Shown in pieces: positions 3,265 through 37,299 of a stretch of 37,479 nt of DNA. Source of the DNA: Tannerella sp. (GTDB lineage: Bacteria; Bacteroidota; Bacteroidia; Bacteroidales; Tannerellaceae); assembly GCA_031276675.1 (NCBI GenBank), contig JAISMO010000141.1, forward strand, positions 1 to 37,479, in the 5' to 3' direction. Both the position numbers and the translations under genes were made by a program. How positions within the stretch are numbered: position 1 is the first letter of the stretch; each line of letters opens with the position of its first letter. The notes beneath the pieces are model-generated. The model was given only the letters and a program-made list of their open reading frames with translations. It was not told the origin of the DNA and made no database searches.

Positions 3265-3458
3265 ATGTGCATTTTTTCCGCCGCAGGCTACGGGAAAGGA
3301 ACCGACCATGTCATTTTTTTCGCCGCAGGTTGCGGGAGGAAAACCGACTATGTCATTTTTCTCGCCGCAGGCTGCGGGAAGAAAACCGACCATGTCATTT
3401 TTCCGCCGCAGGCTGCGGGAGGAAAACCGACCATGTCGGCAAGGTTGCGGGAAGAAAA
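3265..3458. repeat. 42-bp tandem repeat array, ~4.5 units, intergenic
   Basis: Units start at 3265 (43 bp), 3308 (42), 3350 (42), 3392 (41) and 3433 (degenerate). Unit: atgtcatttttctcgccgcaggctgcgggaagaaaaccgacc. Confidence 0.9.
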
Positions 3459-3579
3459 ATGCACTGTGCGGATTTCGGTCGGGCAAGTCCGGGCTATCCG
3501 GACGTCTGCGCCCTGTACACCTCCGGCGCCTCCGGAAAAGAAGGAGCCGTCAAATGCCGAAAACGGGTATGCGGATTCG

Positions 3580-18565: not shown

Positions 18566-18718
18566 ATGTATGGCTATACGGTCAATCATCCGAATAAAGA
18601 CACCGCCTGCTTTTTCGCCGGAGACGGCATATCGCCCTTCCGGGGAGCCGGACTGCCCTGAGTGAACGGAAATTTTTCGGAATATGATTCGGGCCAAATC
18701 GGGGAGGAAAACGGAAAA

Positions 18719-19003
18719 ATGGTTCTGCCGACCGGCAGCTCCGTGAAAACGGACGGATTCATGCTCCCGTCCATAGACAGAACCGTAAAAAAAGACGATT
18801 TCATGCTTCGTACCAGCGGCAGAAGTATAAAAACGACCATTTTCATGCTTCGTACCTGCGGCAGAACCATAAAAAAAGACGATTTCATGTTTCGTACCAG
18901 CGGCAGAAGCATAAAAACGACCATTTTCATGCTTCGTACCAGCGGCAGAACCATAAAAACACGCGGAAACACGATTCTGCCGCAAGTATGAAGCATAAAA
19001 ACA
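18719..19003. repeat. 42-bp tandem repeat array with 84-bp higher-order period
   Basis: Units start at 18719, 18761, 18803, 18845, 18887 and 18929, plus a partial at 18971. They encode alternating MLRT.GRTIKKDDF / MLRTSGRSIKTTIF. Confidence 0.92.
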
Positions 19004-19121: not shown

Positions 19122-22100
19122 TCATTTCCGTTTGCGTCGCAGCGTGAACACGGGCAGATACAGATAGATGCCGGCGATGGACATCATCAGTCCGCCGATG
19201 GCGCCGGCGGCCAGCGGAAACCAGAAGGCTTCCCTGGTCTCGCCCGACAGGAAGGGGATGAAACCCAGTACGGTGGAGATGACCGTCAGGAAGATCGGCG
19301 TCACCTTCGCGTTCCAGGCCTTCAGATAGGCACGGAGCGGCGGCATCAGCGGTTTGCGGCGGCGGATGCGGTTGTATTCGTCCAGGATGTAGATGCCGGC
19401 GTTCACCGTGATGCCGCACAGCAGGACGAAGGAGGCAAAACCGCCCTGGTCGAAGTTCAGCCTGAACAGGTAGAACGTCAGGAACACGCCGATGTATGAA
19501 ACCGGTATCACGCCGATCACCGCCAGCGGCTGTTTCAGCGAATTGAAGAGGATGCCCGTCGTGAAAAAGATGATTACGACAATCAGCAGCAGCAGCGCAT
19601 ACGGTTTGCGTTCGTTCTCACCCCAGCGCCACAGGTTGTTTTCTGCCTTCGCGCTGTATCCCGTCGGCAGTCCGGCATTAAACTCCGTCAGGACGCGCTC
19701 CCGGATTTTCATGCCCTGGCGGGAGGCGCCGATGTATTCGTATTGCAGGCACAGGCGGTATTGCTGGTTGATTTTGGCTACCTGCTGCGGCGTCTGTCCC
19801 ATTTCGACCGTGGCCAGTCCGTCGAGTTTGAAGGACGTTGTGCGGACGGCCTGCGGGACGTGCCGCATGTTCCACAGATCATACTCCTTCGACTGCCGCG
19901 ACGCCAGTTTCAGCTGCTCCGTTCCGCTGCCTGCCGCCAGATATCCTGCCGGAATATTTCTCCCGAAGACGGGCGAGATTGCGGCAAACAGTTCGACGGG
20001 ACGCACGCCCGCCTGCGCCATGCGCTCCCGGTCGAGCTGGAAATAAAATTCCCGGTAATCGTCCTTCCACCACGAAAATTCCGAACCGATCAGCACCTCC
20101 CTGATGCGCGGGTAGACGAGGAGCGCATCGCGCAACTGCTGTGCCTGTTCATACAGTTCGTCATAGTTGTATCCGAACATCTCGATCCGGTAACTGCCGG
20201 CGTGCTCGCGCACGTCGTTGCTGAAGCCCTGATCCTGCAGGCCCCATACGCCCCAGCTGCCGCCGCCCAGTTCCAGCGCTTTGCTGATGACGCGGCTTTT
20301 GAGCGTGTAGGGGAAACCCGTATGTTCGCTCTGCCGGGTAAAAAAGAGGTCGATGCGCGCTTGCCGGGCGTTGTAGATGCTTGTCTGAAACTGCCGGATT
20401 TCCGGATACGTGCTCAGGTAAGCCTCCATGCGGCCGATGAGATGATTCATCTGATTCAGCGTGGAACCGTTCGGCAGGCTGGCCGTGACCGTCAGCACCG
20501 TCTCCTCGCGGTCGGTAAAATAGCTGCCTTCATACACCTTCTGCACAAACAGCCGCAGCGTGCCGCCCAGCGCTTTTTCAACAGCCGGCTTGAGTTTCTC
20601 CCTGTACGTCTCGCCGGCCATCCAGTCATTATACGTCCTTATCAGCAGCGAATCCGCAGGCGAATACGTTCTGCCGCTTTTCATCTCTATTTTGTCGGGC
20701 GCCAGGAACACCGGCAGCCCGAAGGCCAGGACGAGCAGGATACATGCCGTTGTGCGCCACCGGCACATCAGCTCGATTTGCCGTGCATAGAAGCGTGAAA
20801 TCCATACCGGCAGCCGCCGTACAAAGCGCCGCAGGGCGACCCGCCGTTTCGGGAAGCGGTGCGGCGAAGTCCCGGTTGACCGGCGGAAGACGCGCATCTT
20901 CTCCACCAGCGCCGGCACCAGAAACAGGGCGGTCAGCAGCGAAACAGCCAGGTTGATGATCACCACCGCCGCAAAGTCCTGCAGGCTGAGACGGATCTGC
21001 CCGTCCAGGAAGAAGATGACGGCCAGCGCGCCGACGGTCGTCAGCGTGGCCGCCAGGACAGGCAGGAAGGCGTTGCGGTTGTGATGCAGGCGGATGTGTC
21101 CGGCCATGACGATGGTGTTGTCGATGATCAGACTGAGCGAGACGGTGATTCCGGCCAGCGAGTAGAGCTGCATCTCCAGCCCCGACAAGTAATAGAAAAT
21201 CACGGCGACACAGAGATTGACGGTCAGGCTGACGGCAATCAGGAACAGGTAGCGCGGGTTCCGCGTCAGCAGCAGGACAAAGAGCAGCAGCACCAGCAGC
21301 GTCAGCGCCGTACGGAAATAGATTTTGTCCAGTTCCGCCCGGATATATTCCGTCGCGTCATAGCTTGTATGCATCTCATACCCGGCGGGCAGCCGGAGGC
21401 GAAGGGCGTCCATTTCCGCCTTCACCTTCGCGGCCAGCTGCAACTGGTTGGCCGATTCGTCCGCAAGGAAGGAAAGATAGATGGAATTGAGGCCGTTGAT
21501 GCGGTAGTAGCTGTGCGGCGCTTCCTCCTGCCGGCTGACGGTGAGCAGCTGATTCAGGCAGACCGGATGTCCTCCGGGGGTGGCGAGGGTAATCCGCGAG
21601 GGATCGAAGCCCCTGTCGCCGCCGGTTTCGGGAGCGAGCACCAGGCGTATCCGGCGGTCATCTTCCGTACGGACGATGCCGAGAAACTCGCGGGAATGGT
21701 GACGCGCGATGGCCTCGCGGATGTCGTCCACCGTAATCTCCAGCGTGGCCAGCTGCCGGCTGTCGTATTCGAGATGCCATTCCAGCGGCGTGGCGCCGGT
21801 GACGTCGAGGCGGTAGAGGCCGTCGATATGCGCCAGCCGCGGTTTGATATGGTCTTCGGCATAGCGCTGGATGAAAATGGGCGTGGCAGCCGCGTTGAGC
21901 GTATAAACAAGGAAGGGCCGCGCCCGGGTGTCGTCCGGCCGACTCATCTCCACCACCGGATAGCTCAGTCCGGCCGGCATCTCCGGCCATGCCTGCCGCA
22001 CGACAGCCGACGCCTCAAAGCGTGCGGCGTCCACGTCCGCATGTCGGTCCAGTTCCAGCGTAATGCGTCCCCCTCCATTGTCCGAATTCGAGTGCATTTC

Positions 22101-22316
22101 CCGTATGCCGCCGATACGGGCCAGCATGGCCTCCAGGCGAGAGGTCACCTGCATCTCGACCACCCGCGACGAATGACCGGGCATCGAGAAACTCACCGAC
22201 AGCCGGGGCAGCGTGTACGAGGGCGACAGTTTGACCGGCAGTTGCGGTATCAGCGCCACGCCTGCCAGCGACAGGCAGAGGAAAATCACGATGGCCGTAA
22301 AGGAAGAATACCTCAT
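19122..22316 (-). CDS. Efflux RND transporter permease, divergent
   Basis: ~1064 aa. RND topology with two TM bundles: 'LLVLLLFVLLLTRNPRYLFLIAVSLTVNLCVAVIFYYLSGLEMQLYSLAGITVSLSLIIDNTIVMAGHIR'. Confidence 0.92.
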   Translation of the reverse strand: MRYSSFTAIVIFLCLSLAGVALIPQLPVKLSPSYTLPRLSVSFSMPGHSSRVVEMQVTSRLEAMLARIGGIREMHSNSDNGGGRITLELDRHADVDAARFEASAVVRQAWPEMPAGLSYPVVEMSRPDDTRARPFLVYTLNAAATPIFIQRYAEDHIKPRLAHIDGLYRLDVTGATPLEWHLEYDSRQLATLEITVDDIREAIARHHSREFLGIVRTEDDRRIRLVLAPETGGDRGFDPSRITLATPGGHPVCLNQLLTVSRQEEAPHSYYRINGLNSIYLSFLADESANQLQLAAKVKAEMDALRLRLPAGYEMHTSYDATEYIRAELDKIYFRTALTLLVLLLFVLLLTRNPRYLFLIAVSLTVNLCVAVIFYYLSGLEMQLYSLAGITVSLSLIIDNTIVMAGHIRLHHNRNAFLPVLAATLTTVGALAVIFFLDGQIRLSLQDFAAVVIINLAVSLLTALFLVPALVEKMRVFRRSTGTSPHRFPKRRVALRRFVRRLPVWISRFYARQIELMCRWRTTACILLVLAFGLPVFLAPDKIEMKSGRTYSPADSLLIRTYNDWMAGETYREKLKPAVEKALGGTLRLFVQKVYEGSYFTDREETVLTVTASLPNGSTLNQMNHLIGRMEAYLSTYPEIRQFQTSIYNARQARIDLFFTRQSEHTGFPYTLKSRVISKALELGGGSWGVWGLQDQGFSNDVREHAGSYRIEMFGYNYDELYEQAQQLRDALLVYPRIREVLIGSEFSWWKDDYREFYFQLDRERMAQAGVRPVELFAAISPVFGRNIPAGYLAAGSGTEQLKLASRQSKEYDLWNMRHVPQAVRTTSFKLDGLATVEMGQTPQQVAKINQQYRLCLQYEYIGASRQGMKIRERVLTEFNAGLPTGYSAKAENNLWRWGENERKPYALLLLIVVIIFFTTGILFNSLKQPLAVIGVIPVSYIGVFLTFYLFRLNFDQGGFASFVLLCGITVNAGIYILDEYNRIRRRKPLMPPLRAYLKAWNAKVTPIFLTVISTVLGFIPFLSGETREAFWFPLAAGAIGGLMMSIAGIYLYLPVFTLRRKRK

Positions 22317-22373: not shown

Positions 22374-23897
22374 CTATTCGATTATGGATTTGTCCCGTCG
22401 CAGTATAAACGTTTGTCCGGCAAGATCGAACTGCGTGGAGAGAGGACGTCTCAGGGCAAAGTCGTAGAGGGTCAGTCGGCGGATTTTGAAATAACTGATC
22501 CAGTAATTCCTGAGTGCGGCGACGTAATTTCGCTGCGCTTCCTGCCGGCGTTGCAGCGAGAGTGTCAGGCTGCTGATGTCGGCCTTGCCGATCATGAAAC
22601 GCTGCACAGTTTCGGTATGGGCCGTGCGTGCAAGCGCGAGCGCTTCTTCGGCGCTGGCGATGAGGTTCTGCTGCACGTTGAAGTCGCCCACGGTCATGAT
22701 CACATCTTCCTCGATGCTGATTTCCGTCTGCCGGGCGGAGATTTGCGTCACGTTCAGTTCGTTTCTGGCAATGTTGTGCCGTCCTTTCCTGACGCCCCAG
22801 TCCACCAGCGGAACCGAGACCGAGACGGACAGCATGTCCTGCTGCAGCGGGTTGCGGTAGGCGTCGCGCAGCGTGGCAGCCGCCTGATTGAATCCGACGC
22901 TGGCGCTGATCGTCGCGTCGAAACGCGCCTCCTTGCCGGTCCGGTCAACCCGCTGTTCGGCTTCGAGCGTCTGCTGGCGCAGGGCAAGGAATTGCGGATT
23001 GTTTTCGCGGGCATGTCGCAAGGCTTCGTCTACGGAAACGGCCAGTTCGCCGGGCCGGTCGGGCAGGAGAAGGCGTATCTGCGTATGACGGTCGAAATGC
23101 AGGCAGGAAGCCAGGCTGAACATGGCGCGTCTGAGGGCGATTTCCGCATTTTGCAGGGTATTGCGGGCGTTCACAGCGTCGAGTTTGAGCGTCATCAGGT
23201 CGGCCCGGGTGATGGAAGCGATGCGGTAACGCTGTTCGCCAGTGCGGTAGAGCGTATCGGTAGAGGACACGTTGTCGCGCGCCATGTCATATTCGGTCTG
23301 CGCCATGGCCAGGTCAAAGAAAAAGCCCGTTACCGTTTCGCTGACGTTCTCCAGGTTGCCGATCAGTTCCTTTTTGGCCTTTTCGTATTTGAGCGGCTCG
23401 ATTTTCCGTTCCCACCTGAAGGGGTTATAACCCAGGAGGCTTTGCGAGTATCCGATGCGGACGGGAATGCTGGTGAACTGCGTATAGGCCGTGGCGCCAA
23501 AGTTGCGCATGTATCCCATGTCGGACTGAAGGAAAAACGTTCCGCCGAACAGGTCGAAATTCTGCGTCACCTCCAGTCCGCCGGAAGCGTAGAAAGACTG
23601 CTGGCGGCGGTAGACGTCGATGTCTTCCGCCGAATCGTAGCGGCGGGTGATGTCCCGGTAATACTGTGCGGGTGTAAGGCGCAGGGTCAGGCCGGGCAGG
23701 CGCGAGGCGCGATAGGTGCGGTACTGCCAGTAACCCGCAAGATAGAGATTTTTGGCGCGAAAGGCTTCGAGCGAACTGTCTGCCGCAATCTCGATGGCGT
23801 GTTCCAGCGTCAGCGTCAGTGCCCGAGTCTGTGCTCCGCCATGCATCTGAACGGCTGCAAGCAAAATGGCAGCCGGTATAAACCGTTCTTTTTTCAT
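22374..23897 (-). CDS. TolC family outer membrane efflux protein
   Basis: Signal peptide, long helical regions and paired OEP repeats. Located between two RND permease genes. Confidence 0.88.
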   Translation of the reverse strand: MKKERFIPAAILLAAVQMHGGAQTRALTLTLEHAIEIAADSSLEAFRAKNLYLAGYWQYRTYRASRLPGLTLRLTPAQYYRDITRRYDSAEDIDVYRRQQSFYASGGLEVTQNFDLFGGTFFLQSDMGYMRNFGATAYTQFTSIPVRIGYSQSLLGYNPFRWERKIEPLKYEKAKKELIGNLENVSETVTGFFFDLAMAQTEYDMARDNVSSTDTLYRTGEQRYRIASITRADLMTLKLDAVNARNTLQNAEIALRRAMFSLASCLHFDRHTQIRLLLPDRPGELAVSVDEALRHARENNPQFLALRQQTLEAEQRVDRTGKEARFDATISASVGFNQAAATLRDAYRNPLQQDMLSVSVSVPLVDWGVRKGRHNIARNELNVTQISARQTEISIEEDVIMTVGDFNVQQNLIASAEEALALARTAHTETVQRFMIGKADISSLTLSLQRRQEAQRNYVAALRNYWISYFKIRRLTLYDFALRRPLSTQFDLAGQTFILRRDKSIIE

Positions 23898-23930: not shown

Positions 23931-26900
23931 TTAACCACTGACCGGAATATCCCGTTCAGTCGAATTTCGTTCTTTTTTCCTGTACATAAGCCAGTAGACC
24001 GGCGGAATGATAAAGAGGCTGACAGGGGTGCCGACGGTCATGGCGGCAATCATCGCGACGGAAAGCGGCTTTTGCAGTTCGCTGCCCATGTCGGAGGAGA
24101 ACAGCAGCGGCACCATGGCAAAGACGGTCGTCAGCGAAGTCATGATGATGGGGCGCAGGCGGCGGCGGCCGGCTTCGTGAATCGCCTCCATCAGCGGTAT
24201 GCCCTCCCTGCGCAGTTCGTTGATGGCATCTATTTTCAGGATGGAATCGTTGATGATGATCCCGCAGGTGACCACAATGCCGATGGCCGACATCAGGTTG
24301 AGCGAATGGCCGCACAGCCACAGCACGCACAGCGCGGCCGCCGTGTCGACAGGTATTTCGAGCAGCACGATCAGCGGCTGCAGGAAACTCTCGAATTGTG
24401 CCGCCAGAATGAAATACATCAACCCGATGGAGACAAAAAGAATCACCACCAGTTCGTTCAGCATCCGGCGGCTGGAGAAGAAACCGCCTGTGAAATCCAC
24501 GTCCCACACCTCGCGTCCGGCTTCGCGGAGCATCGTTTCGCGCACACACTGCCGCACGTCCGCCATCAGCTGCGGCACGTCCTCCACGTCATGGAAGCGG
24601 AAGGGAATATACTCGCCGTTCTTCCCGGCCGTCAGGGTTTTCAGGTCTTCGCCCGGCGTTATTCGCACCAGCGCCTGCAGGGGGACGGTCTCCGTCCGTC
24701 CGTTTTCGTCGGGCAGCGTATGCACCAGCGTGTGGCGCATCATCTCTTCGACCGACTGTTCGTCGCCCGCCAGCACAATGGGCAGATACTGCTGATAGGA
24801 GCGCAGGACGGCCACTTCATTGTCGCGGAAAAGCGTCTTGAGCGTACGGTAGACCTCGTCCCAGTCCACGCGGTAGAGCAGGAGTTTCTGCCGGTCGACG
24901 GAGATGTTCAGCTGGCTGTCGAACGCAATGCCGCCGGACAGCCGTCCGGTACGGCTGCGCAGGGCGTCTTCCAGCACATGGAGGTGAGCGGGAAGGGGTA
25001 TTTCAGCCCTGTTGCGGGCATGGAGTTCGGCGACGATGTCGGCCTCGCCGGTCGCAAAGATTTTCTCGAAGACCGTTTCCGGCGGGGCAAACGAGAAGAC
25101 GGCTGCCGGATAGTGTTCACGCAGCCACGCGGTGATGTGGCGCTGCAGGACGGGGATACCGGCCGGCTGCACCGTGCGGAAATAGAGTTCGGATTCCGAC
25201 ACGGACAGCTCGCGGTCACGGTTCAGCAGAAACTGCTGCTGTCCGACGCCGGCCGTGTATTCGACGGCGCCGGCTGCAACGGCGCGAAACAGACTGTCGA
25301 TCCGTGCACGATTCTCATGGACGTGGATATTTTCGTTCCATTCAATGAAAGCGGACAGTTCGTTACGGCTGATATCGGGCATCCGGCTCTTGGGAATCCC
25401 GTAAAACAGCCATATGCAAAGCGGCAAAGTCAGCGCAACGGCCGAAAGGCAGAGGCGTCTGTGGCGGAACACGAAGTCGATGCCGCGGTCGTAGAAACGG
25501 TCCAGCGTGTGCGCCTTCACCGGGTTGCGAAACCGGAAGCGGCGGCGTTTGCGCGTCGGCAAACCGTAGACCAGTTTGTAAAGCACCGGCAGAAGCATAA
25601 TCCCGGTGAACCAGGAAACCAGCAGCCCGACGGTGACGGCAAAGGCCTGGTCAAAGAAAATCGCGCCCGCGATGCCGCTCATGAATACCAGCGGGACAAA
25701 AACGGCGATGGTGGTCAGCGTGGAACTGAGCATGGGCGTGATGACTTCCGTCGTTCCCCTGTCGCAGGCTTCGTCGAGCGTCAGCCCCGCCGCACGGTAC
25801 TGAGCTATGTTTTCGGTGACGATGATGGAACTGTCAATCATCATCCCCAGCGCCAGAATCAGTCCCGAAAGGGAAATAATATTCAGCGAAACATGGAAAA
25901 GGTAAAAGAACAGCAGGCTGATCACGAGACTGGCCGTCATGCTCAGGCCGATAACGGCGGGACTCCGGACGTCTCCGAGAAAAAGAATGGCGACAAGGCA
26001 GATAAAGAGAAAACCGAGTGCGAGGTTCTGTTTCAGGCTGGAGACGGTATAGTCGAGCAGTTCCGTCTGGTTGCGCGAGACGGAAAAGACGACGTCGGGA
26101 TAGACGGCGGTGAAATAATCCATTACCCCCTGCAGGGCTTTTTTCAGGCTGCTCATGTTTTCGTCGGACTGTTTGATGACGGCCAGCATGACGGCACGTT
26201 CGTTGCCGGCCAGCGAGAAGCCCGTTTCCCGAACCGGCGCAACGGATACTTTGGCCAGTTCCCCGAGCCGGAAAAGGCGTTCCCCGTCCGCCTTGCGGAG
26301 GTAGATGTTTTCGACGTCGGCAGGCGTGCGCAGCAGGGCCGAGAACCGGATGCCGTATTCATAATAGCCGTCACGCACGGTCATGCTGCCGACATCCATG
26401 TTGCTGGCGGCAAGCGCCTCCTCCAGGTCGCCAAGCGAAAAGCCGGCCAGTTCGAGCTGTCGCATGTCAGGCTCAATCCGGAGTTGCCGGTTGACCATGC
26501 CGGTGATGTCAACCATGGCCACTTCGGGCAGTTGTTCGATGTGTCGTTGGATGACGCTTCCGGCAAACTCGCAGAGTTCCGGGAAACGCGCGTCGCTCTC
26601 CACCTTCCGCTCCCGAAGGCCGTCGCCCGAAGGTTGCGGCCGTAAGGTCAGGTTAAGGTAGAAGACGGGAATGTCGGTGACGTTGGCCTTCACGACGCGC
26701 GGTCGTTCCGCGTCGCGGGGGAGGCTGTTCATCGCCGCGTCGATTTTTTCGTTAACCTCGATGAAGGTGAGGCCGGTATGGGTTCCGAAGTCGAACTGCA
26801 GGCGGATCAGCGCAGCACCGTCGCGCGTCTCGGTATGTATTTCGCGCAGGTGACTGACCTGTACCAACTGCTGCCGCAAGGGTTTGACGACCGTGTTTTC

Positions 26901-27071
26901 GAGTTCGCGCGCCGACGTGTTCCGGCCCGTTACCTGTACGGTAATTTCCGGAATGGCAATATCTGGCAGCAGCGACACCGGCAGCGTGAAATACGTTGCC
27001 CATCCGATGATGAAACAGGCCGTAAAGGCCATCAGTACGGCAACCGGACGATTCAGGAGGAATTTAATCAT
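23931..27071 (-). CDS. Efflux RND transporter permease (AcrB/CzcA superfamily)
   Basis: 'MIKFLLNRPVAVLMAFTACFIIGWATYFTLPVSLLPDIAIPEITVQV', 'LGMMIDSSIIVTENIAQYR', 'GIIINDSILKIDAINELRREG'. Confidence 0.96.
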   Translation of the reverse strand: MIKFLLNRPVAVLMAFTACFIIGWATYFTLPVSLLPDIAIPEITVQVTGRNTSARELENTVVKPLRQQLVQVSHLREIHTETRDGAALIRLQFDFGTHTGLTFIEVNEKIDAAMNSLPRDAERPRVVKANVTDIPVFYLNLTLRPQPSGDGLRERKVESDARFPELCEFAGSVIQRHIEQLPEVAMVDITGMVNRQLRIEPDMRQLELAGFSLGDLEEALAASNMDVGSMTVRDGYYEYGIRFSALLRTPADVENIYLRKADGERLFRLGELAKVSVAPVRETGFSLAGNERAVMLAVIKQSDENMSSLKKALQGVMDYFTAVYPDVVFSVSRNQTELLDYTVSSLKQNLALGFLFICLVAILFLGDVRSPAVIGLSMTASLVISLLFFYLFHVSLNIISLSGLILALGMMIDSSIIVTENIAQYRAAGLTLDEACDRGTTEVITPMLSSTLTTIAVFVPLVFMSGIAGAIFFDQAFAVTVGLLVSWFTGIMLLPVLYKLVYGLPTRKRRRFRFRNPVKAHTLDRFYDRGIDFVFRHRRLCLSAVALTLPLCIWLFYGIPKSRMPDISRNELSAFIEWNENIHVHENRARIDSLFRAVAAGAVEYTAGVGQQQFLLNRDRELSVSESELYFRTVQPAGIPVLQRHITAWLREHYPAAVFSFAPPETVFEKIFATGEADIVAELHARNRAEIPLPAHLHVLEDALRSRTGRLSGGIAFDSQLNISVDRQKLLLYRVDWDEVYRTLKTLFRDNEVAVLRSYQQYLPIVLAGDEQSVEEMMRHTLVHTLPDENGRTETVPLQALVRITPGEDLKTLTAGKNGEYIPFRFHDVEDVPQLMADVRQCVRETMLREAGREVWDVDFTGGFFSSRRMLNELVVILFVSIGLMYFILAAQFESFLQPLIVLLEIPVDTAAALCVLWLCGHSLNLMSAIGIVVTCGIIINDSILKIDAINELRREGIPLMEAIHEAGRRRLRPIIMTSLTTVFAMVPLLFSSDMGSELQKPLSVAMIAAMTVGTPVSLFIIPPVYWLMYRKKERNSTERDIPVSG

Positions 27072-27074
27072 GGT

Positions 27075-28166
27075 TTATTGGGAAATCATGGAATCTTTCA
27101 CGCTAACCGGACTTTCGTGGGCAAGGTTCACGTTTCCGGAGGTAATAATGAGGTCGCCTTCTTTCAGGTCACCGGCGGTATCGGAGCTAACGGCGTAGCT
27201 GCCGGAATTTTCCAGGTCGGTATGCACGTATACCCAGCGAGCCTTACCGTCTTTCAGGGCAAAGAGCACCTGCCTGCCCGAACGGATGACGACCGCCGAC
27301 TTGGGAACGACCCACCGTCCGCCCAGCAGGCGCTGGACAGTGACACGCACCTTCATGCCTTCAAACATCCGGCCCTTGGCGGCCACGGCGGCTTTCACCC
27401 GCACCAGCCCGCCGGCGTCGACAAACGGATTGATTTCGCGGATACGTCCTTCCGTCCCCTCGGAGGGCGTGGCATAGGGCGTCACCACGACCCGGTCGCC
27501 TGTTTTTATCAGCGGCAGTTCATTTTCCAGCACCGAGAAAACGGCCTCAAGGCTGTGCGGGTCGATGACCGTGCAAAAAGTTTCCGAGGTCGAAGCCCTG
27601 TTAAACGGTTTGGCGGAAAGGTTGGCAATCACGCCGTCGAACGGTGCCCGCAGGACGGCGTTCCGGACTTCATACAGCGCCAGTTCATACTGTGCCAGCG
27701 CCTGCCTGTAACCGCTTCGCGACTCTACCAGCGCCAGCGTCGCCGGAGGCACGTTCGCCGAATCTTCAGGCGCAAATCCCTGGCCGATCAGGACATCCTG
27801 CATATCCAGCTTCGCCTTGTCCAGCGCATCCCTTGCCTGCGCCGCCCGGTTCTCCAGACGGAATGCCGCCAGTTCGGCAATGGCCTGCCCGCGGCTGACG
27901 CGGTCGCCGTTTTTCACGTAGATGGCCGCCACCGGTTCGTCCGATCCGAAACGCAGATCGGCACAGCGGGCGGCCGCGAGTTTCCCGTTACTCACCAGTT
28001 CGTGCCGGAAATCAGTTGCCGTCAGCGTCATGACCGTTACCTCATTCGTCGCATCCGGCAACACCGTTTCGACCGTGCCTTCCTCCTCCGGCGTCCTTTT
28101 TTCACTCAGGCAGGCTGTCATGCAGATTAGCGCCGGAACAAGCAGCCAGTTTGTTTTCTTTCTCAT
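27075..28166 (-). CDS. Efflux RND transporter periplasmic adaptor (HlyD/MFP family)
   Basis: Lipoprotein-type N-terminus; 'AIYVKNGDRVSRGQAIAELA', 'NAVLRAPFDGVIANLSAKPFNRAS', 'GMKVRVTVQRLLGGRWVVPKSAVVIRSGRQVLFAL'. Confidence 0.94.
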   Translation of the reverse strand: MRKKTNWLLVPALICMTACLSEKRTPEEEGTVETVLPDATNEVTVMTLTATDFRHELVSNGKLAAARCADLRFGSDEPVAAIYVKNGDRVSRGQAIAELAAFRLENRAAQARDALDKAKLDMQDVLIGQGFAPEDSANVPPATLALVESRSGYRQALAQYELALYEVRNAVLRAPFDGVIANLSAKPFNRASTSETFCTVIDPHSLEAVFSVLENELPLIKTGDRVVVTPYATPSEGTEGRIREINPFVDAGGLVRVKAAVAAKGRMFEGMKVRVTVQRLLGGRWVVPKSAVVIRSGRQVLFALKDGKARWVYVHTDLENSGSYAVSSDTAGDLKEGDLIITSGNVNLAHESPVSVKDSMISQ

Positions 28167-28475: not shown

Positions 28476-29369
28476 TCATTGAATTGTCTTTAAAAACCGT
28501 TCCCGTCTCCATTTCCCCGTATGCAGGTCAACCGATTTCCATATAATCCACGCCTTCCCGACAATATATTCCTCCGGCAGCAACCCCCAATAACGCGAAT
28601 CCTGTGAATCTTCCGTATAATCACCCGACATAAAGTAATAATTCTTCCGGAAACAGTATGACACAAGTGGTTGTCCGTTCAGGTAAACCGTAGAATCGAC
28701 ACACGTCACTTCCGCTCGCTGTTCCCAGGCAATCAGCCTGCGGTACAGCAGATAATGCGTGCGGTTCATCGGCAGCACATCGCCTTTTTTCGGGATATAC
28801 AGCGGGCCGAAATCCCGGATATTCCATGCCAGCGTTGAATCGAACGGAAACGTATGATACACGGCCATTTCAAACGATGCACGGTCACGCGTCGACACGC
28901 GCCGCTGCGAAGCCACGTTGCCCAGCGGAGCATCCCATCCCCGCACACGCACAAAGCCATCCCGAATTTCCAGTGTATCGCCCGGCAGACCCGTACAGCG
29001 CTTGACGTAGTATTTCAGAATATGCATCTCCATTTTCTCGCCGCCACGCGGATACGGAATATGAAATACCGTTACATCATTATGCCGTATGCTGCGCCAT
29101 CCCGGCAGACGGTGTATTTCCACTCTTTCGCCGCGCAGAGAAGCGAACAGGTTGAACACTCGCGCTCCGACAGTCGGCTTGAATACCAGTAAATAATCAC
29201 CCGCCATCAGTTCCGGTTCCATCGAACTGCTCGGTATACGGAACGACGCCAGCAGGCACACCTGTATGCAGACATATGCTACGATCACGATGCTTAGCCA
29301 GAAAAGCAGGTCGACCGTCCGGTACACCAGCCGGCGTAACCCGCTTTTTATCTTTTCACTTACCGCCAT
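28476..29369 (-). CDS. lepB: Signal peptidase I (S26 family)
   Basis: 'RIPSSSMEPELMAGDYLLVFK' (catalytic Ser region) and 'LKYYVKRCTGLPGDTLEIRDGFV' (catalytic Lys region), with an N-terminal TM. Confidence 0.94.
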   Translation of the reverse strand: MAVSEKIKSGLRRLVYRTVDLLFWLSIVIVAYVCIQVCLLASFRIPSSSMEPELMAGDYLLVFKPTVGARVFNLFASLRGERVEIHRLPGWRSIRHNDVTVFHIPYPRGGEKMEMHILKYYVKRCTGLPGDTLEIRDGFVRVRGWDAPLGNVASQRRVSTRDRASFEMAVYHTFPFDSTLAWNIRDFGPLYIPKKGDVLPMNRTHYLLYRRLIAWEQRAEVTCVDSTVYLNGQPLVSYCFRKNYYFMSGDYTEDSQDSRYWGLLPEEYIVGKAWIIWKSVDLHTGKWRRERFLKTIQ

Positions 29370-29533: not shown

Positions 29534-30703
29534 TTATTTTTTCACTAATTCAAAGCACTTAAAACTCAACACGTCTTCTTTAAAAGAAGGATTCATGATA
29601 TGATTGTCACAAATATAAAGTCCGTCCGGATGAACAAAAAGAAGTATCGGATTATAGATATATTCCGGAAATAACGTTTCTCCCATGATATTAAACTTTT
29701 CATCCAATACGATGATTGAAAATTTTTTGCGTCCCTGAGCGGTCATTGCCACATAATTTACGCCCTCTTCGAGCGCTGCTTTCGGATAAGCAAGCCGGTA
29801 GTATATGTTACGGTATTTATCATACAGCAGGTTTCCGTAACAGGGATCTTTATAATCATTTTTTGCAAACAGAAACATGTCTTCTTTTCTCTTTTTTACT
29901 ACTTTGACATGGTCAATATATTTACTTTTTACTACATATTTCCGTATTTCGCTATGATCAACAGGCGCCACATAAATTGCCTCATCATAATAAAATGAAT
30001 AAATGAACTTTTCCCCGTCAAACTCTCTGCTGAAAGACAGAGCGAATCCCCCTACATGACCGAATTCTTCGTCCTTAATCAAAGGCGGGAAGAAAAAAGG
30101 CAATTCTTTACACAAATGATTTTCCGGATTAATCACTACAGAAACCGGCGTAGAAGAAACCGGAACTGTCCAGCTTGGTTTTTGCGTAATATACAGTTCA
30201 TGATTGATAACGAAAAGCGGCGTATAAAAAAAGGAATTTGGATTGAAGGTCGGAATGACGGTGTAGCCGCTTTCCGTTTCGCCATAATTGATTCTTTGCA
30301 GAACCGTCCCGTTTTGATCGATGCTGTATAAAGTGGGAACAGACAGCGTGGTTACATAAATGGAATCCAAACTGATAACATAATATCCCGAAGGCCCTGT
30401 AATGCCGTCAGGCCCTTCCGGTTCTATTTTTGTTTTGAAAAGGAACTCACCGCTCGGCAAATCATAAAACAAAATTTCATGAATGCTGTTCATGAATGTC
30501 AAATACGTTTTCCCGTTCCTTTCTTCATAAGGAAACAATGATACAAATTGATATTTGGTATCCTCATCCAGTGAATAGGAGAGACCTTTTCCGTTCTCTG
30601 CCAGTTCGTAATCATACGATACCTTATTTTGTTCCAAAAAACCGGCATTTCTTTTACACGAAAAAGCAATTACCATGAATACCGTGCACAATATATATTT
30701 TTC
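29534..30703 (-). CDS. DUF4221-like / 6-bladed beta-propeller lipoprotein
   Basis: 'MEKYILCTVFMVIAFSC' lipoprotein signal, then 'GPDGITGPSGYYVISLDSIYVTTLSVPTLYSIDQNGTVLQRINYG' in the style of DUF4221/BF3164 beta-propellers. Confidence 0.8.
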   Translation of the reverse strand, partial: EKYILCTVFMVIAFSCKRNAGFLEQNKVSYDYELAENGKGLSYSLDEDTKYQFVSLFPYEERNGKTYLTFMNSIHEILFYDLPSGEFLFKTKIEPEGPDGITGPSGYYVISLDSIYVTTLSVPTLYSIDQNGTVLQRINYGETESGYTVIPTFNPNSFFYTPLFVINHELYITQKPSWTVPVSSTPVSVVINPENHLCKELPFFFPPLIKDEEFGHVGGFALSFSREFDGEKFIYSFYYDEAIYVAPVDHSEIRKYVVKSKYIDHVKVVKKRKEDMFLFAKNDYKDPCYGNLLYDKYRNIYYRLAYPKAALEEGVNYVAMTAQGRKKFSIIVLDEKFNIMGETLFPEYIYNPILLFVHPDGLYICDNHIMNPSFKEDVLSFKCFELVKK

Positions 30704-30731
30704 CATTCGGCAATACCATTTTGATAATACG

Positions 30732-30771: not shown

Positions 30772-30990
30772 CTAAAAACCGCAAGGGCAGTAAACTCCAC
30801 TGTCGTAAACATTACAATAAGCGATATATGGCGGAGCCGAATGACAATCGAATCCTCCTCCTTCCCTCCAGCCAATGCTTCAATATTCTCTAACGCAACG
30901 ACAGAAAGTGTATCCTGCCGTTTTCCCAAATTCACGTTCAATGCAGCAACAACTGCAATGCCGTATAAAATTCTCTTTTTTTTATTTCAT
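30772..30990 (-). pseudogene. Frameshifted NVEALA-family Cys-rich peptide gene (copy C)
   Basis: Removing one T at 30984 gives MKKKKRILYGIAVVAALNVNLGKRQDTLSVVALENIEALA. A second 1-nt indel in GGAGGGAAGGAGGAGGA joins it to ...FDCHSAPPYIAYCNVYDSGVYCPCGF*. Confidence 0.7.
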
Positions 30991-31000
30991 AAAAACTTTA

Positions 31001-31070
31001 ATTTATTTGTTTTGTGGCTGTCTCTATCCTTTCAACAACCGAAACCCGCTCGGATTTCAAATTAATTCCG
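31001..31070 (-). promoter_or_regulatory. Conserved leader element upstream of NVEALA copy C
   Basis: CGGAATTAATTTGAAATCCGAGCGGGTTTCGGTTGTTGAAAGGATAGA on the minus strand, shared with the two elements at 32481-32563 and 34170-34257. Confidence 0.75.
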
Positions 31071-31103: not shown

Positions 31104-32177
31104 TCAATTCAAATCAAAATAGATAATGGATTTTTCAGGCTCTCGTATCGCGTAAATTTTTTTGTTGTTTTCATCTACATCGAATGATATGATTTGACAG
31201 TCCAATACGTACTTTGTCAACGGCTTGCCTTCCCAGTCAAACGTGAAAACTACATCTGAATTGGAATAATTGGAAACATCCTGTTTCTCTTTACCGGAAT
31301 ACAACGCATATATCCGTTCGTCCGTACTTTTCAAACACAAATAGGCTCTTCGGGTTTCGGGTGATTTTATCATTGCGCCACGGGCATAAGACCTTTGCCT
31401 GTCGTAGTTAAAGTTGAATCCTTTTTCGGGCCCTTTTGTTAAAGTCGATAAAATTCCACTGGAATGATACACTTCCAAACAGTCAAAATATCTTCCGCCC
31501 AGTACGATTTTGGATTTGTCAGGTTTTACATTCAACAGGATTGAAAACATCTCATTCAAGACAAAATCGGGAGCATTTTTTTTAAATGAAAACCGCGGAT
31601 TATACACAGGCTTATGTTTTAGTTGTCTGTCAAAAAAATAAAACCGTTCCTTGAAACTGTTCAAATTTACACAGACAAAAAGACTGTCCGAAATCCATAC
31701 GGGATCCTCGACCGTCATTGTTGCAAAAGTATCCTTTACAAACCGGATTTTTTCAGTCATCACAGATATTTTTCCCACATTCGCCTTGCCATATTTCACC
31801 CACTGCCTGCCGGTAATATCATATAACCACACGAATTGATTGTCCGGAGATGGATGTACATATCCGGAGGACAACAATTCATTCGGTCCTGTTCCCCGCC
31901 CAACCATCAAACCTCTGTACAAATTATTTTTTACATCGAACAAATGAACAACCGAATCTATCGAAGAGTCAACAATATACAAGAACGTATCTACCTTTGT
32001 CATTCGAACGGGATTTCCGATAAATTCGGTATCTATATCCGTATGTGAAAGCATTTTTACTTCTTTAAATGATTTGTCGTTGAATATAACCGCATCTTTT
32101 ATTTCTATATATTCATTGGAATCACAGCCTGCAAGGAGTATTGACACCATTATGCATATAATATGTTTTGAGTACAT
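31104..32177 (-). CDS. BF3164-like / 6-bladed beta-propeller lipoprotein
   Basis: Lipobox 'MYSKHIICIMVSILLAGC', then 'GNPVRMTKVDTFLYIVDSSIDSVVHLFDVKNNLYRGLMVGRGTGPNELLSSG'. The true start is probably 32177; the 66-codon upstream extension overlaps NVEALA-B. Confidence 0.85.
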   Translation of the reverse strand: MYSKHIICIMVSILLAGCDSNEYIEIKDAVIFNDKSFKEVKMLSHTDIDTEFIGNPVRMTKVDTFLYIVDSSIDSVVHLFDVKNNLYRGLMVGRGTGPNELLSSGYVHPSPDNQFVWLYDITGRQWVKYGKANVGKISVMTEKIRFVKDTFATMTVEDPVWISDSLFVCVNLNSFKERFYFFDRQLKHKPVYNPRFSFKKNAPDFVLNEMFSILLNVKPDKSKIVLGGRYFDCLEVYHSSGILSTLTKGPEKGFNFNYDRQRSYARGAMIKSPETRRAYLCLKSTDERIYALYSGKEKQDVSNYSNSDVVFTFDWEGKPLTKYVLDCQIISFDVDENNKKIYAIREPEKSIIYFDLN

Positions 32178-32250: not shown

Positions 32251-32472
32251 TCAACATTCGTCAAAATCCCGCAATGTATCTCCACTCGAAAGTTTACAAG
32301 TATCTCCCGCGTCGGGACAACATGTAACACCACCTTCGCCGCCAGCCGAAGCCTCCACATTCTCCAGCGCCACATCCGTCAAAGCCATTTCACTTTTGCT
32401 TTGACTCACATTCCAGGCAGCAGCCACCGCAATGGCTGCTACAATCATCATATAAATTTTTTTTCTCTTCAT
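32251..32472 (-). CDS. NVEALA-family Cys-rich peptide precursor (copy B)
   Basis: MKRKKIYMMIVAAIAVAAAWNVSQSKSEMALTDVALENVEASAGGEGGVTCCPDAGDTCKLSSGDTLRDFDEC. Confidence 0.88.
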   Translation of the reverse strand: MKRKKIYMMIVAAIAVAAAWNVSQSKSEMALTDVALENVEASAGGEGGVTCCPDAGDTCKLSSGDTLRDFDEC

Positions 32473-32480
32473 AAGTTTCA

Positions 32481-32563
32481 AATTAAAAATGTTATAAAAT
32501 AAATCTGTTTGCCGGTTGTGTCTATCCTTTCAACAAATCCACTCGGATTTCAAATCAATTCCG
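32481..32563 (-). promoter_or_regulatory. Conserved leader element upstream of NVEALA copy B
   Basis: CGGAATTGATTTGAAATCCGAGTGGATTTGTTGAAAGGATAGACACAACCGGCAAACAGATTTATTTTATAAC on the minus strand, homologous to copies A and C. Confidence 0.8.
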
Positions 32564-32630
32564 CACTTTTCAATTCCTTGCTTTTTTGAGGGAAATCAGG
32601 GACGGAGAGTTTCTATTTTTGCCTTAATCC

Positions 32631-33803
32631 TCATTCGCTTTCAACTATCTCATTATTAAAACGAAAGAAAATCAATATTGGGGCATCATCTGAGATTTGG
32701 TTGTTTTTACATAATTCGATAAACGATTTTTCTTTATCACAAAAACGGTCTTTTTTCAAATCTTCAAAATTCATACATGAAATAAATGACGTTTCGTCCA
32801 CGCCATGAATATGATATAGAAAATTATGCTTGTCTTCCAACGAGTCAAATTTCATATTAAATGACTTTTTTGAAATTTTGTTGTAAATCCCAAGATGCTT
32901 AATTTCTCTGACAAAATAACTCATCAACAAAAAAGAATCATTTTCAAAAGGTTGAGCAAAAGATACATAATCTGATTTCACCAATCGATTCAAATAAGGG
33001 TTGCCTTCTCCTCCTTCCGATAAAAAATCCAGAGGAGGTACAGAATACCGGCCATATTCGATACTATAGTACGGCTGAAACCTGTTATTCGCATATTTAT
33101 AAATTACATTGTCGAATGGAGGAAATACGTATAAATCGAGGTTACAGGTATAAAACCGATATACAGGTGACATCAGGTAACCGCTTTCAAACGGGATGGG
33201 TATAGATTTCGATATAACGTTCATTTCGTTATCAGTAGTTATTATGTGAAATTTATATGATTCATTGCCGATTGATAGAACGGTGTAATTGAACCAAACG
33301 AATGTCTCGTCGGACAATGCAAAGACATTGATGCCTCCAACACCTTTTTTTTCATACAAATACTGGAATGAATCCAATTCATAACATATCAGTTTGTTAT
33401 CTACATCCACAAGGTAGATTTTATCATTTTCGAGACTCGCCGAAAATGACATGCTAAATGAATATTCTCCAGGACCTTGTCCTTTACGTTCCAATACTCT
33501 TTTAAACGTGCCGTTTTTATCAAATACGATTAACTTTCCCAATCGGATATCGAACAGAAATATTTCTTCTCCAATTATGTTTAACTGACTAACTTCCGAA
33601 AACATACTTTCGTCGGTAACTTCCAAAGGCACAAACCGTACTTCGTCCGTCAATTGCGATCTGTTCAAAACGCTCGTTTTATCAAAGGTTATTGTTTGAA
33701 CAGCTTCATTTGTTTCATCTTTTGAGTTTTTCGAGATATTATTACATGAAGCAACTGTTGTTAACAACAAACTAATCCGCATAACACATATATATTGTTT
33801 CAT
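32631..33803 (-). CDS. 6-bladed beta-propeller lipoprotein (DUF5128/BF3164-like)
   Basis: 'MKQYICVMRISLLLTTVASC' lipobox, then 'IFLFDIRLGKLIVFDKNGTFKRVLERKGQGPGEYSF', typical of this family. Confidence 0.88.
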   Translation of the reverse strand: MKQYICVMRISLLLTTVASCNNISKNSKDETNEAVQTITFDKTSVLNRSQLTDEVRFVPLEVTDESMFSEVSQLNIIGEEIFLFDIRLGKLIVFDKNGTFKRVLERKGQGPGEYSFSMSFSASLENDKIYLVDVDNKLICYELDSFQYLYEKKGVGGINVFALSDETFVWFNYTVLSIGNESYKFHIITTDNEMNVISKSIPIPFESGYLMSPVYRFYTCNLDLYVFPPFDNVIYKYANNRFQPYYSIEYGRYSVPPLDFLSEGGEGNPYLNRLVKSDYVSFAQPFENDSFLLMSYFVREIKHLGIYNKISKKSFNMKFDSLEDKHNFLYHIHGVDETSFISCMNFEDLKKDRFCDKEKSFIELCKNNQISDDAPILIFFRFNNEIVESE

Positions 33804-33927
33804 AATCGTGTATTTTAAAATAAAGGATGTATCAAGATACAATCATAAAACAGTAAAAATTATATCTGATTACTTACCTGCAAATTTGGTATTGTTATGA
33901 TGAAATTGATACAACCTTTAAAATTAA

Positions 33928-34161
33928 TCAACCACAGCAACTGAGAGACCCCGAACCACTGCAAAGACACGCGACACCAGATCCTGGCGTGCCAGGAAGG
34001 ACGTATTTGTATTTATCAGAACTCTCTTCGTCCGCCAGTGCCTCCACATTCTCCAGTGCCACATCCGTCAAAGCCATTTCACTTTTGCTTTGGCTCACAT
34101 TCCAGGCAGCTGCCACCACAATGGCGGCTACAATCATCATATAAAAAAAAATTCTCTTCAT
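33928..34161 (-). CDS. NVEALA-family Cys-rich peptide precursor (copy A)
   Basis: MKRIFFYMMIVAAIVVAAAWNVSQSKSEMALTDVALENVEALADEESSDKYKYVLPGTPGSGVACLCSGSGSLSCCG. Confidence 0.88.
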   Translation of the reverse strand: MKRIFFYMMIVAAIVVAAAWNVSQSKSEMALTDVALENVEALADEESSDKYKYVLPGTPGSGVACLCSGSGSLSCCG

Positions 34162-34169
34162 GATTTGCA

Positions 34170-34257
34170 AATTAAAAATGTTATAAAATAAATCTGTTTG
34201 CCGGTTGTGTCTATCCTTTCAACAACCGAAACCCGCTCGGATTTCAAATTAATACCG
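34170..34257 (-). promoter_or_regulatory. Conserved leader element upstream of NVEALA copy A
   Basis: CGGTATTAATTTGAAATCCGAGCGGGTTTCGGTTGTTGAAAGGATAGACACAACCGGCAAACAGATTTATTTTATAAC on the minus strand. Confidence 0.8.
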
Positions 34258-34323
34258 TACTTTTGCACACCTCCTTTCCGTTTATATATTCGACATTCGG
34301 GCAAGGTTTCCCTTCCCGCCCTT

Positions 34324-35196
34324 TTACAGAACATTCCCCCTGACAACCAGTTTAATCATACGTTCGCAATTACATTTTACCGTAATCACTTCTTCAAAAA
34401 CACCCGTCACTTCCGGATTTGCTTCCACCGTCACCGGCAAGGTTCCGCCGGGTGCAGCCGGATGTTTGTCACAGGTTGCCGAGATACATTCGCAGGAAAC
34501 AGCCGTGCCGGTAATTATCAGCGGTTCACTGCCCGTATTACGTATTGTAAATACAGCACGCCGTTTTTCTCCCTTGGGAAAGTCGCCCAAATCTGCGGCC
34601 TCCGGTTCCACTTCGGCCGAAGTATTTGCAGCAGCCGGCTTCTTTTCACCATTAAACTGTTTCAAATACAGTTCCTTCACCTCCGAATTGTGTACCGGAT
34701 TGCCGATCACAACCACCCTGTTTGCTCCGTCCAGTAAAAATGTCTGGAACGCAATATTCGACGGAAACCGGTTGTGACGGTTCAGCCGGTCGTCCAAATC
34801 CAGACAGACCGCTGCATCAAACCCGTCACGCTTTAACATATAATGCAGTTCTCTTGAGTCTTTAGGATGGAAGAAAAAGAGAAACGGTACCGTGTTTCCG
34901 GTCAGAGAATCCGTTTGGGCGATGAACTCCTTCCATTTGGATAATTGCAGCTTGCAGCCCGTGCAGCCGAGCGAATCAGTATAAGACAGCACCTTGTAGC
35001 CGGATGCGGGAAGCAGCGATGTGACCGTATCCTTTCCCAAACGAGTAAAAACCAGTCCGTCCGGAAATACAATCTCCCTGCCCTGCCATTCCGCTACGGT
35101 TTTGCAAATGTCATCCTTCCCTTTCTCCCGTTTACAGGAGAATAAAGCAATTCCCCACATCAGGATCGCAGATATCAGCACATATTTCTTTGACAT
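34324..35196 (-). CDS. Lipoprotein with N-terminal thioredoxin-like region (CTGC) and C-terminal DUF1573 domain
   Basis: 'MWGIALFSC' lipobox; 'GYKVLSYTDSLGCTGCKLQLSKWKEF' redox-like motif; 'DLGDFPKGEKRRAVFTIRNTGSEPLIITGTAVSCECISATCDKHPAAPGGTLPVTVEANPE' (DUF1573). Confidence 0.87.
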   Translation of the reverse strand: MSKKYVLISAILMWGIALFSCKREKGKDDICKTVAEWQGREIVFPDGLVFTRLGKDTVTSLLPASGYKVLSYTDSLGCTGCKLQLSKWKEFIAQTDSLTGNTVPFLFFFHPKDSRELHYMLKRDGFDAAVCLDLDDRLNRHNRFPSNIAFQTFLLDGANRVVVIGNPVHNSEVKELYLKQFNGEKKPAAANTSAEVEPEAADLGDFPKGEKRRAVFTIRNTGSEPLIITGTAVSCECISATCDKHPAAPGGTLPVTVEANPEVTGVFEEVITVKCNCERMIKLVVRGNVL

Positions 35197-35319
35197 GTTC
35201 ATAATTCCTGTTTCAGAGGGCAAAATTAGCGGGTGTAAATTATGAAACCAACTGTTTTAATATGTTTTACAGCATGTTTTCATGTTAATTGTGTACAAAA
35301 ACCATTTTTGCCGGTTTGT

Positions 35320-37299
35320 CTACCACCATACCTGTTCTCCATTTTCATAAGTGAATATCCGTTCTTCCTCTCCTCTGGTCAGGTTACGCAATAGAAACAG
35401 CGCATTCAGCGGCGCATTGCCGTAATACAGCACATAATCCGCTGCTGTCTGCTGTCCCAGCGACACCCAGCCGCCATACCCCCAGTAAAACAGTTCGTAA
35501 AGTTGTCCGGGGACGATAATATTGTCATCATTACGCGGAAGATAGCGAATTTTGGTAATCCGCGCGGGCCGGCCGAAATCCATACCGACCCACGCGGAAT
35601 CGGGATGCGCCGAATCGTAAAACGTAAGCACGTCTCCGTCAAATACTTTGTCTATGGTACGTGTCGGATGTTCTTTTTTTGCTCCTGTCATGCCAATCAT
35701 TTTCCCTCTCGCCCGGATCGTGTCCGTTCCTTCATAAAATTCCAGTTCTGCCAGATGACCGTTCCCACCGGGAGGTGATACATATCGATAATATCGACAA
35801 CTCGCCGCATTGTTTACGGGCACATTGCAATAATAAAAATCGGGGTCGCGTTTAACTGTATGCAAAATTATGGCATCGGAAAAATCCGACCGGTTTGCCG
35901 CCTGGAATTGTCCACCGGCCATTTTAACGTGCCAGTTGGCCAAAAAGGGATGTTTTCGTGTAAGTCGCAGTGACTGTTTATGGATGGTATCCGGCTTTAG
36001 CCACTGTAATTCAGCCCGATTCGTAAAAATAAAAGGCGCTCCGCAAGAGTATGCGGTTTGATTTTGGTAATACGCCGGCATGTATACAATATTTTTCCCC
36101 ATGTCTGCAAACACAATTGGATATTCCTTTTTCGCCCACTGGACAGGCACCCATGATTTATTGTCAAATACAGTTAAATAAATATAATCCTGTCGGGCAT
36201 CAAATATGTTATCTGGCTGAATGATAATGTTTGCAGCGGAAAACGTCAGGGATGACACATCACGCATATATACATTTCGAAAAATTATCGGTATGTCGGT
36301 TGATTTGGAAATACTCACAAGAGATTGTTGATTGGCTGAATAAGTGTGTCGAAACGCTTTTGCCATCCGATGATCCGGCTTGTGCGGTTCACCGGGCTTA
36401 AGTTCTGTAGGTATGAAAGGTACATATTTTCCGTCTTCTGTCCTGACCGAAGCCCAGGAATGTCCTAAACTGCGAAATGGCCATTGCGGCGTATAATCCC
36501 AGTTCGCGGGTATCCCAAAGGCGCGCATGACGTAAATACCGTATCTCACTCGCTCAACACATGGGCCTGTTCGTAATTTATGGATCATACTGTAACTGGT
36601 TGTGGGCAGTAAGGATGACATTTGGTTTATTCCATCCCATTGCTCTCCCATCGCTTCGTATATCTTAATACAAGCAGTAATTATGTTCGCATTGCCTGTA
36701 CGTAATGAATCGTATAGAGGGCGGTATTGTTCTAATATAATGTCACGCCAGTTTTCTAACGGTTCCGTTGCAGTACGGTAAGGCAAAATTTCTTCGCAAA
36801 AAACATCAAAAGGAATATCTTTTCCCCAGGGCATCGATTTCCATACTTCAAAGGAACAGTCAATATTACGTATTAAATAGGATGCCTTGATATGATGGAT
36901 ATCATACAACTTTTTTTGTTGAGATGTCAATTGGTGTGCAACTGTCAATTGGTGTGCAACTGTCAATGAATCTGATATTTCTGATTTGATAAAGAAATAT
37001 GCTGTTTTCATAGACAACCATTCATCAAACAAGGCTTCGAAATCCTTAAATGGTTTATCGCTTTTTGAATATTTTCCAGGCATGTTTTCTATCAAAAAAC
37101 AGGCAGCCCTGTATTTCAGATTGTCTGACGGGTTTCGGCGGTAATATTCCAGTACTTTTACCAATTCCGCTTGATTTTCTCCGGCCTGGGCCAATACCTG
37201 TGCCAAACGCGAAGGCGGAGCACACGAAATCAGCAACCCTGAAATCAACGCATTAACAATGACTTTTTTCATGCACAAATATATAATAGACGGTTTCAT
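35320..37299 (-). CDS. Transglutaminase-like lipoprotein with a C-terminal beta-sandwich/discoidin-like region
   Basis: Lipobox 'LISGLLISC'; core 'GPCVERVRYGIYVMRAFGIPANWDYTPQWPFRSLGHSWASVRTEDGKYVPF' keeps the Cys and His of the transglutaminase fold; C-terminal 'VFDGDVLTFYDSAHPDSAWVGMDFGRPARITKIRYLPRNDDN' is discoidin-like. Confidence 0.82.
   Translation of the reverse strand: MKPSIIYLCMKKVIVNALISGLLISCAPPSRLAQVLAQAGENQAELVKVLEYYRRNPSDNLKYRAACFLIENMPGKYSKSDKPFKDFEALFDEWLSMKTAYFFIKSEISDSLTVAHQLTVAHQLTSQQKKLYDIHHIKASYLIRNIDCSFEVWKSMPWGKDIPFDVFCEEILPYRTATEPLENWRDIILEQYRPLYDSLRTGNANIITACIKIYEAMGEQWDGINQMSSLLPTTSYSMIHKLRTGPCVERVRYGIYVMRAFGIPANWDYTPQWPFRSLGHSWASVRTEDGKYVPFIPTELKPGEPHKPDHRMAKAFRHTYSANQQSLVSISKSTDIPIIFRNVYMRDVSSLTFSAANIIIQPDNIFDARQDYIYLTVFDNKSWVPVQWAKKEYPIVFADMGKNIVYMPAYYQNQTAYSCGAPFIFTNRAELQWLKPDTIHKQSLRLTRKHPFLANWHVKMAGGQFQAANRSDFSDAIILHTVKRDPDFYYCNVPVNNAASCRYYRYVSPPGGNGHLAELEFYEGTDTIRARGKMIGMTGAKKEHPTRTIDKVFDGDVLTFYDSAHPDSAWVGMDFGRPARITKIRYLPRNDDNIIVPGQLYELFYWGYGGWVSLGQQTAADYVLYYGNAPLNALFLLRNLTRGEEERIFTYENGEQVWW
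36925..36966. repeat. 18-bp tandem duplication inside the transglutaminase-like gene
   Basis: tgtcaattggtgtgcaac x2 (36925-36942, 36943-36960) plus a partial tgtcaa. In-frame TVAHQL-TVAHQL duplication. Confidence 0.9.

Follow-up and report, generated by a model that had tools for sequence, protein, structure and literature searches.

NVEALA precursor peptides of a Tannerella contig and their pairing with downstream propeller lipoproteins

Two NVEALA precursors and their neighbourhood

The window analysed here is an entire contig of 37,479 bases from the 2.9 Mb draft genome of a Tannerella sp., and all of its genes named below lie on the minus strand. Two of these genes encode small precursors, A (33928..34161; 77 aa, ATG at 34161) and B (32251..32472; 73 aa, ATG at 32472), each with a 43-aa leader, an AxA motif and a short core of 34 aa in A and 30 aa in B. 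Both are members of the Pfam family NVEALA (PF14055), with E=2.2e-12 for A and E=8.6e-9 for B and scores of 46.9 and 35.4 bits against a gathering cut-off of 27. The motif N(V/I)EALA follows the hydrophobic N-terminus and takes the form NVEALA in A and NVEASA in B, so that the AxA sites read A-L-A and A-S-A. A third intact NVEALA gene of this genome lies on another contig (L002/L119).

The sequence-only reading had described near-identical leaders followed by unrelated cores of four cysteines each, with identity ending abruptly at AxA, and this description is accurate for A and B. Their leader DNA is identical at 114 of 129 bases (88%, over 43 codons) and their core DNA at 43 of 101 (43% of aligned bases), which is background level; protein identity is 0.88 for the leader and 0.13 for the core. 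The similarity extends upstream from -1 to -110, where 93 of 105 bases are identical (89%), and drops to a background of about 50% beyond that point. This upstream block, comprising promoter and 5' untranslated region, occupies 34162..34266 before A and 32473..32572 before B, and is common to a third copy, C, where it occupies 30991..31070. The element TTTGAAATCCGAG...GTTGTTGAAAGGATAGA precedes all three copies, at 31023-31061 (C), 32521-32554 (B) and 34210-34248 (A), and its three occurrences in the window compare with 0.01-0.09 expected; no further match of equal quality was found in the genome. Together with the two scores above the Pfam cut-off, this element indicates that the similarity of A and B is not due to chance.

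Before A the element could form a short hairpin (CGGTTGT/ACAACCG), a putative regulator site or RNA element. When translated antisense, a near-match at the end of another contig (L060, G000:C124:13929-13945) resembles copy C; it is possibly a further degraded NVEALA copy. Elsewhere in the window, two intergenic stretches (3265-3650 and 18440-18990) consist of short imperfect repeats in which several reading frames stay open over long distances, for example MSFFSPQVAGGKPT... and ...MLRTSGRSIKTTIF....

Copy C (30772..30990) is broken. It carries a stop at codon 3, its leader and its Cys-bearing core lie in different frames, and its score of 21.6 bits falls under the family cut-off. It had been presented as a reconstructed copy with four cysteines; it is indeed a relative of A and B with a Cys-bearing core, but the stop and the split frames mean that the core given for it was a reconstruction and not an open reading frame. 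The gene downstream of C encodes a DUF4221 protein (29534..30706; PF13970, E=1.6e-48). A grouping of the C core with cores partnered by DUF4221 proteins was considered and found no support (Mann-Whitney p=0.52).

Large lipoproteins are encoded directly downstream of A and B. The partner of A is a DUF5128 six-bladed propeller (32631..33800; PF17170, E=3.4e-52) related to PDB 4raa, and that of B is a TolB_like propeller (31104..32177; PF15869, E=2.3e-30), for which an AlphaFold model (pLDDT 86), along with a fold search, gave a beta-propeller. The remainder of the neighbourhood includes a paralog of S26 signal peptidases (28476..29369), which is separate from a tandem pair of S26 genes in another part of the genome, and a lipoprotein (34324..35199) with a ResA-like thioredoxin domain and a C-terminal DUF1573 domain. 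Beyond the latter lies a lipoprotein with transglutaminase-like and F5/8 type C domains (35320..37299) that is conserved in NVEALA loci. Export genes lie on the other side: an RND membrane-fusion protein (27075..28166) and a first RND pump protein (23931..27071), respectively 60-65% and 69% identical to their counterparts in NVEALA loci of other genera, a TolC-type outer-membrane factor (22374..23897) and a second RND pump protein (19122..22316).

Precursors, candidate processing genes and a regulator across relatives

Loci from about 40 related genomes in eight genera yielded a set of 159 distinct precursors, with a median leader of 43 residues and a median core of 35. The AxA motif forms part of a conserved ...LxxxNVEALAxxE segment: P1 and P3 are Ala in all 159 (the search for the site itself demanded Ala at P1), Asn stands at P6 in 99%, and Glu at P4 in 95% and at P3' in 96%. 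An ordinary type I signal peptide is cleaved about 5-7 residues after its hydrophobic region. The NVEALA precursors carry the Ala residues at -3 and -1 of such a signal, but AxA lies a median of 23 residues (range 17-27) beyond the hydrophobic stretch, a distance outside the usual type I range.

The number of core cysteines is even in 149 of the 159 precursors (two in 70, four in 54, six in 22 and eight in 3) and odd in 10. This excess has p=6e-33 against an even chance, a value computed on related and hence not independent sequences. The even number is strong indirect evidence that NVEALA cores hold intramolecular disulfides. NVEALA genes occur in 64 of 125 Tannerellaceae genomes, with up to 24 in a single genome of that family, and are scattered in Bacteroidales beyond it. 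A search of the open-access literature, which omits most subscription journals, returned no function or paper for NVEALA/PF14055, and nothing relevant on DUF5128 or on propeller peptides in Bacteroides.

Several neighbours of A and B recur with the precursors. In 56 long NVEALA loci we found the ResA-like lipoprotein in 36, the transglutaminase-like protein in 30, the S26 paralog in 25, a Wzy_C/TPR protein in 22 and RND components in 13-14, these last figures being lower bounds because the loci stop at contig ends or at 20 kb. Copies of the S26 paralog in NVEALA loci are 45-60% identical and all retain the catalytic Ser49 and Lys123; the paralog is a candidate dedicated leader peptidase. Among the 125 family genomes it accompanies NVEALA genes in 47 and both are missing from 50 (Fisher 4e-10, with kinship ignored and many genomes incomplete). 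Two S26 paralogs of equal score in one genome (G049:C1:3899800-3900666 and 3988017-3988883) each contain an in-frame TAG; these are taken to be parallel copies of the locus with the candidate leader peptidase broken. In the ResA-like lipoprotein the CxxC (C79-T-G-C82) is kept in 38 of 38 relatives, and the N-terminal domain matches the fold of ResA thiol-disulfide oxidoreductases. The Wzy_C membrane protein, which has C-terminal TPRs (e.g. L040:3355-5172), was not seen in the window. In the two Wzy_C sequences that were read, the His normally present in the 'HN' motif of O-antigen ligases is apparently replaced (YxFNE).

One group of precursors stands apart. The type-1 peptide, with 48 precursors, has a well-conserved two-Cys core, CxGxG[SD][VI][DE]CxGxKV. 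Beside its gene, and divergent from it, lies the gene for a ToxR-like membrane regulator with a C-terminal winged-helix domain (PF00486) in 37 of 48 cases, as against 3 of 111 for the other types (p=8e-23). This arrangement suggests that the type-1 peptide and its regulator may form an autoregulated switch. Neither was found in the window's genome, which is 94% complete, with two distant regulator queries. The regulator was also not found in T. forsythia, where NVEALA loci are present, with a distant query that may be too insensitive.

Cores and their partner propellers

A conserved leader ahead of a hypervariable Cys-containing core had been read as the hallmark of ribosomally made precursor peptides. 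The leader, the Cys-bearing core and the precursor nature are supported by the 159 relatives; the hypervariability is not. Among paralogs within a genome the median identity is 0.67 for leaders and 0.21 for cores, compared with about 0.20 for random pairs. Between genera, leader and core identities are 0.58 and 0.57 for B and its relative in L085, 0.40 and 0.61 for A and its relative in L063, and 0.51 and 0.72 for the third copy and its relative in L052. The leader-versus-core comparison had been put forward together with the result that would speak against rapid core change, cores conserved like their leaders, and between genera this was the result: core relatives are conserved as well as the leaders or better, which rules out a core that is hypervariable between species. 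We conclude that NVEALA cores are discrete, old types that are tied to different partner genes.

A same-strand gene of at least 200 aa lies directly downstream of 136 of the 159 precursors (median 351 aa), and wherever Pfam identified the partner it was a DUF5128, TolB_like or DUF4221 propeller. For the propeller of A the best match, at 33%, is the protein paired with the A-like core in L063. The propeller of B shares 54% identity with the L085 partner of the B-like core and less than 30% with every other. Across genera, the similarity of cores correlates with that of their downstream partners, with r=0.45 for all peptides and 0.42 outside type-1, and when partners were shuffled within genomes r was 0.06-0.09 and none of 300 shuffles reached the observed value. 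For 39 of 132 peptides, the most similar core of another genus came with the most similar partner as well, where chance predicts 2; the most similar leader did so for 3 of 132. In a set of 65 for which both neighbours were compared, the upstream gene gave r=0.04 and no such agreement, and the downstream gene r=0.42 and 20 agreements.

That the core tracks the downstream propeller and not the upstream gene points to core plus propeller as the evolving unit, which would lie behind a leader and promoter common to the paralogs of a genome. The co-variation shows a stable pairing of core and propeller; by itself it is no proof that the two bind, and it also fits the inheritance of two adjacent genes together. 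The pairing is not exclusive on the side of the propellers: DUF5128 genes are widespread, with 14-64 per genome outside NVEALA loci in seven other genomes, which rules out propellers restricted to these loci.

In one genome (G073), genes for another family of small, secreted proteins that contain cysteines are interspersed with DUF5128 propeller genes; these proteins have a different leader in common, ...NYGIxxNSLxVxVLAQ. Its members lie at L192:5060-5482, L192:8436-8858 and L193:3823-4293, with further ones at L191:7961-8377, L191:17517-17978 and L200:14118-14606, all on the minus strand. Nearby genes encode an S26 signal peptidase (L191:2761-3630) and PMT_2-like membrane proteins. The family has no convincing match in Pfam or NCBIfam.

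Proposed roles and comparison with known systems

Based on these results, we propose that A and B are precursors of secreted, disulfide-bonded peptides, each made with its own partner, a six-bladed propeller lipoprotein encoded just downstream, a reading to which we give a probability of about 0.55. The hydrophobic N-terminus would lodge in the inner membrane and leave the remainder of the precursor in the periplasm. The S26 peptidase of the locus would then recognise the LTDVALENVEALA-xxE segment and cleave after AxA, about 23 residues past the hydrophobic stretch, and the ResA-like CxxC lipoprotein would pair the cysteines of the core. Release of the core by the RND/membrane-fusion/TolC exporter is the weakest of the proposed steps. 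Once released, the core may bind its cognate propeller lipoprotein, as the co-variation suggests. Cassettes of this kind would sit behind leaders and promoters that are alike within a genome, and cores would be acquired, or diverge, together with their partners and share a single processing line; this describes the pattern that we observe, not the process behind it.

As to purpose, our tentative first choice is competition between cells with self-protection, in which the propeller would act as an immunity or decoy protein. We rank it first since bacteriocin loci typically pass many parallel peptide-partner cassettes through one processing line. Furthermore, as for a bacteriocin with its immunity gene, the partner is co-inherited with its peptide, and this applies to the downstream gene only, not to the upstream one. 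Counting against the model are the partners of 350-400 aa, which are large for immunity proteins, the abundance of DUF5128 propellers outside NVEALA loci, the failure to find the ToxR-like regulator and type-1 peptide in the window's genome, and the 17 of the 125 family genomes, many of them incomplete, in which the search found NVEALA matches and no S26 paralog, along with 11 that have the reverse. Ranked next, and more doubtful, is peptide signalling through the propeller without any killing: the ToxR-like regulator would sense type-1 peptides as autoinducers, and propellers would serve as receptors or relays for the variable peptides, their ligands. The divergent regulator beside type-1 genes favours this, and conservation of cores between genera is as expected of ligands. 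Yet no path is known by which an outer-membrane propeller could reach the regulator, and the failure to find the regulator and type-1 peptide in the window's genome, or the regulator in T. forsythia, also weighs against signalling, unless the search was too insensitive.

Less probable again, the peptide may have a structural role: it would be a subunit or folding partner of a surface propeller that binds nutrients or host factors, and not a diffusible product. Strict adjacency to, and co-variation with, a large lipoprotein agree with such a role, as do the abundance of these propellers apart from NVEALA genes and, in one genome, their position beside another small-peptide family, but it leaves unexplained both the conserved RND exporter of many loci and the use of one leader for many unrelated cores. 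It is improbable that the leader recruits a tailoring enzyme to make a modified RiPP, although a conserved leader with differing cores would suit one. No tailoring enzyme was found among the neighbouring genes scanned, which cover part of the 37 kb, with radical SAM, LanC, YcaO, ATP-grasp and C39 genes all missing there; the Wzy_C or transglutaminase-like proteins of some loci might modify the peptide, and plain disulfides account for the even number of cysteines. Least credible is a recent tandem duplication with functionless, decaying cores. The broken copy C and the near-identical upstream and leader blocks are what decay after duplication would leave, but other genera have kept A-like and B-like cores, which have even cysteine numbers and cognate partners there.

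Taken more broadly, NVEALA loci may represent modular cassettes found throughout the Bacteroidales, in which a leader and promoter common to a genome and one dedicated line of S26 leader peptidase, ResA-like lipoprotein and RND exporter serve many unrelated disulfide peptides, each recognised specifically by its own surface propeller, with a switch in many species in which a ToxR-like membrane regulator senses a two-Cys peptide; the VLAQ-leader family may follow the same plan. We consider this generalisation somewhat short of an even bet. If the peptides are antagonistic or signalling molecules, they would add an unexplored layer to the ways in which gut and oral Bacteroidales interact. The pairing of core and propeller turns NVEALA and the DUF5128, TolB_like and DUF4221 families, all of 'unknown function', into testable pairs of ligand and partner, and a likely leader peptidase and disulfide enzyme can now be named for NVEALA peptides.

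Among known systems, bacteroidetocins (Coyne et al. 2019, PMC6671954) are similar in being Bacteroidetes peptides with four cysteines whose loci carry their own thiol oxidoreductase, Bacteroides being without general disulfide machinery. They have leaders of 15-16 aa that are cut at GG and a peptidase-ABC exporter (PMC6671954). In contrast, NVEALA leaders are about 43 aa long, contain a hydrophobic segment and end in AxA, and each peptide has a partner lipoprotein. The double-glycine leader of class II bacteriocins, ending in GG, is absent from A and B, and no C39 peptidase-ABC transporter occurs among the neighbours scanned, where S26 and RND genes are present instead. The pneumococcal blp locus encodes peptides with a common leader, a variable region of peptides and partners, shared processing genes and a regulator beside a distinct peptide. 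NVEALA loci resemble it in this organisation (PMC6422914 and others), and we claim no relation in sequence; they differ in that no double-Gly leader, ABC transporter or two-component system was seen and in that the partners are propeller lipoproteins. Substrates of type I signal peptidases share the AxA motif, and an S26 protease is encoded in the NVEALA locus, but the distance of AxA from the hydrophobic stretch and its place in a conserved segment set NVEALA precursors apart. The PF14055 entry itself, whose leader motif and size are those of A and B, gives a name only, without cognate partner, processing genes or regulator, and these appear in no paper of the open-access literature searched. 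Neither the pairing rule nor the processing set appears to have been described, but the kind of system to which they belong, with a leader, a core, a cognate partner and a dedicated protease, is known in outline.
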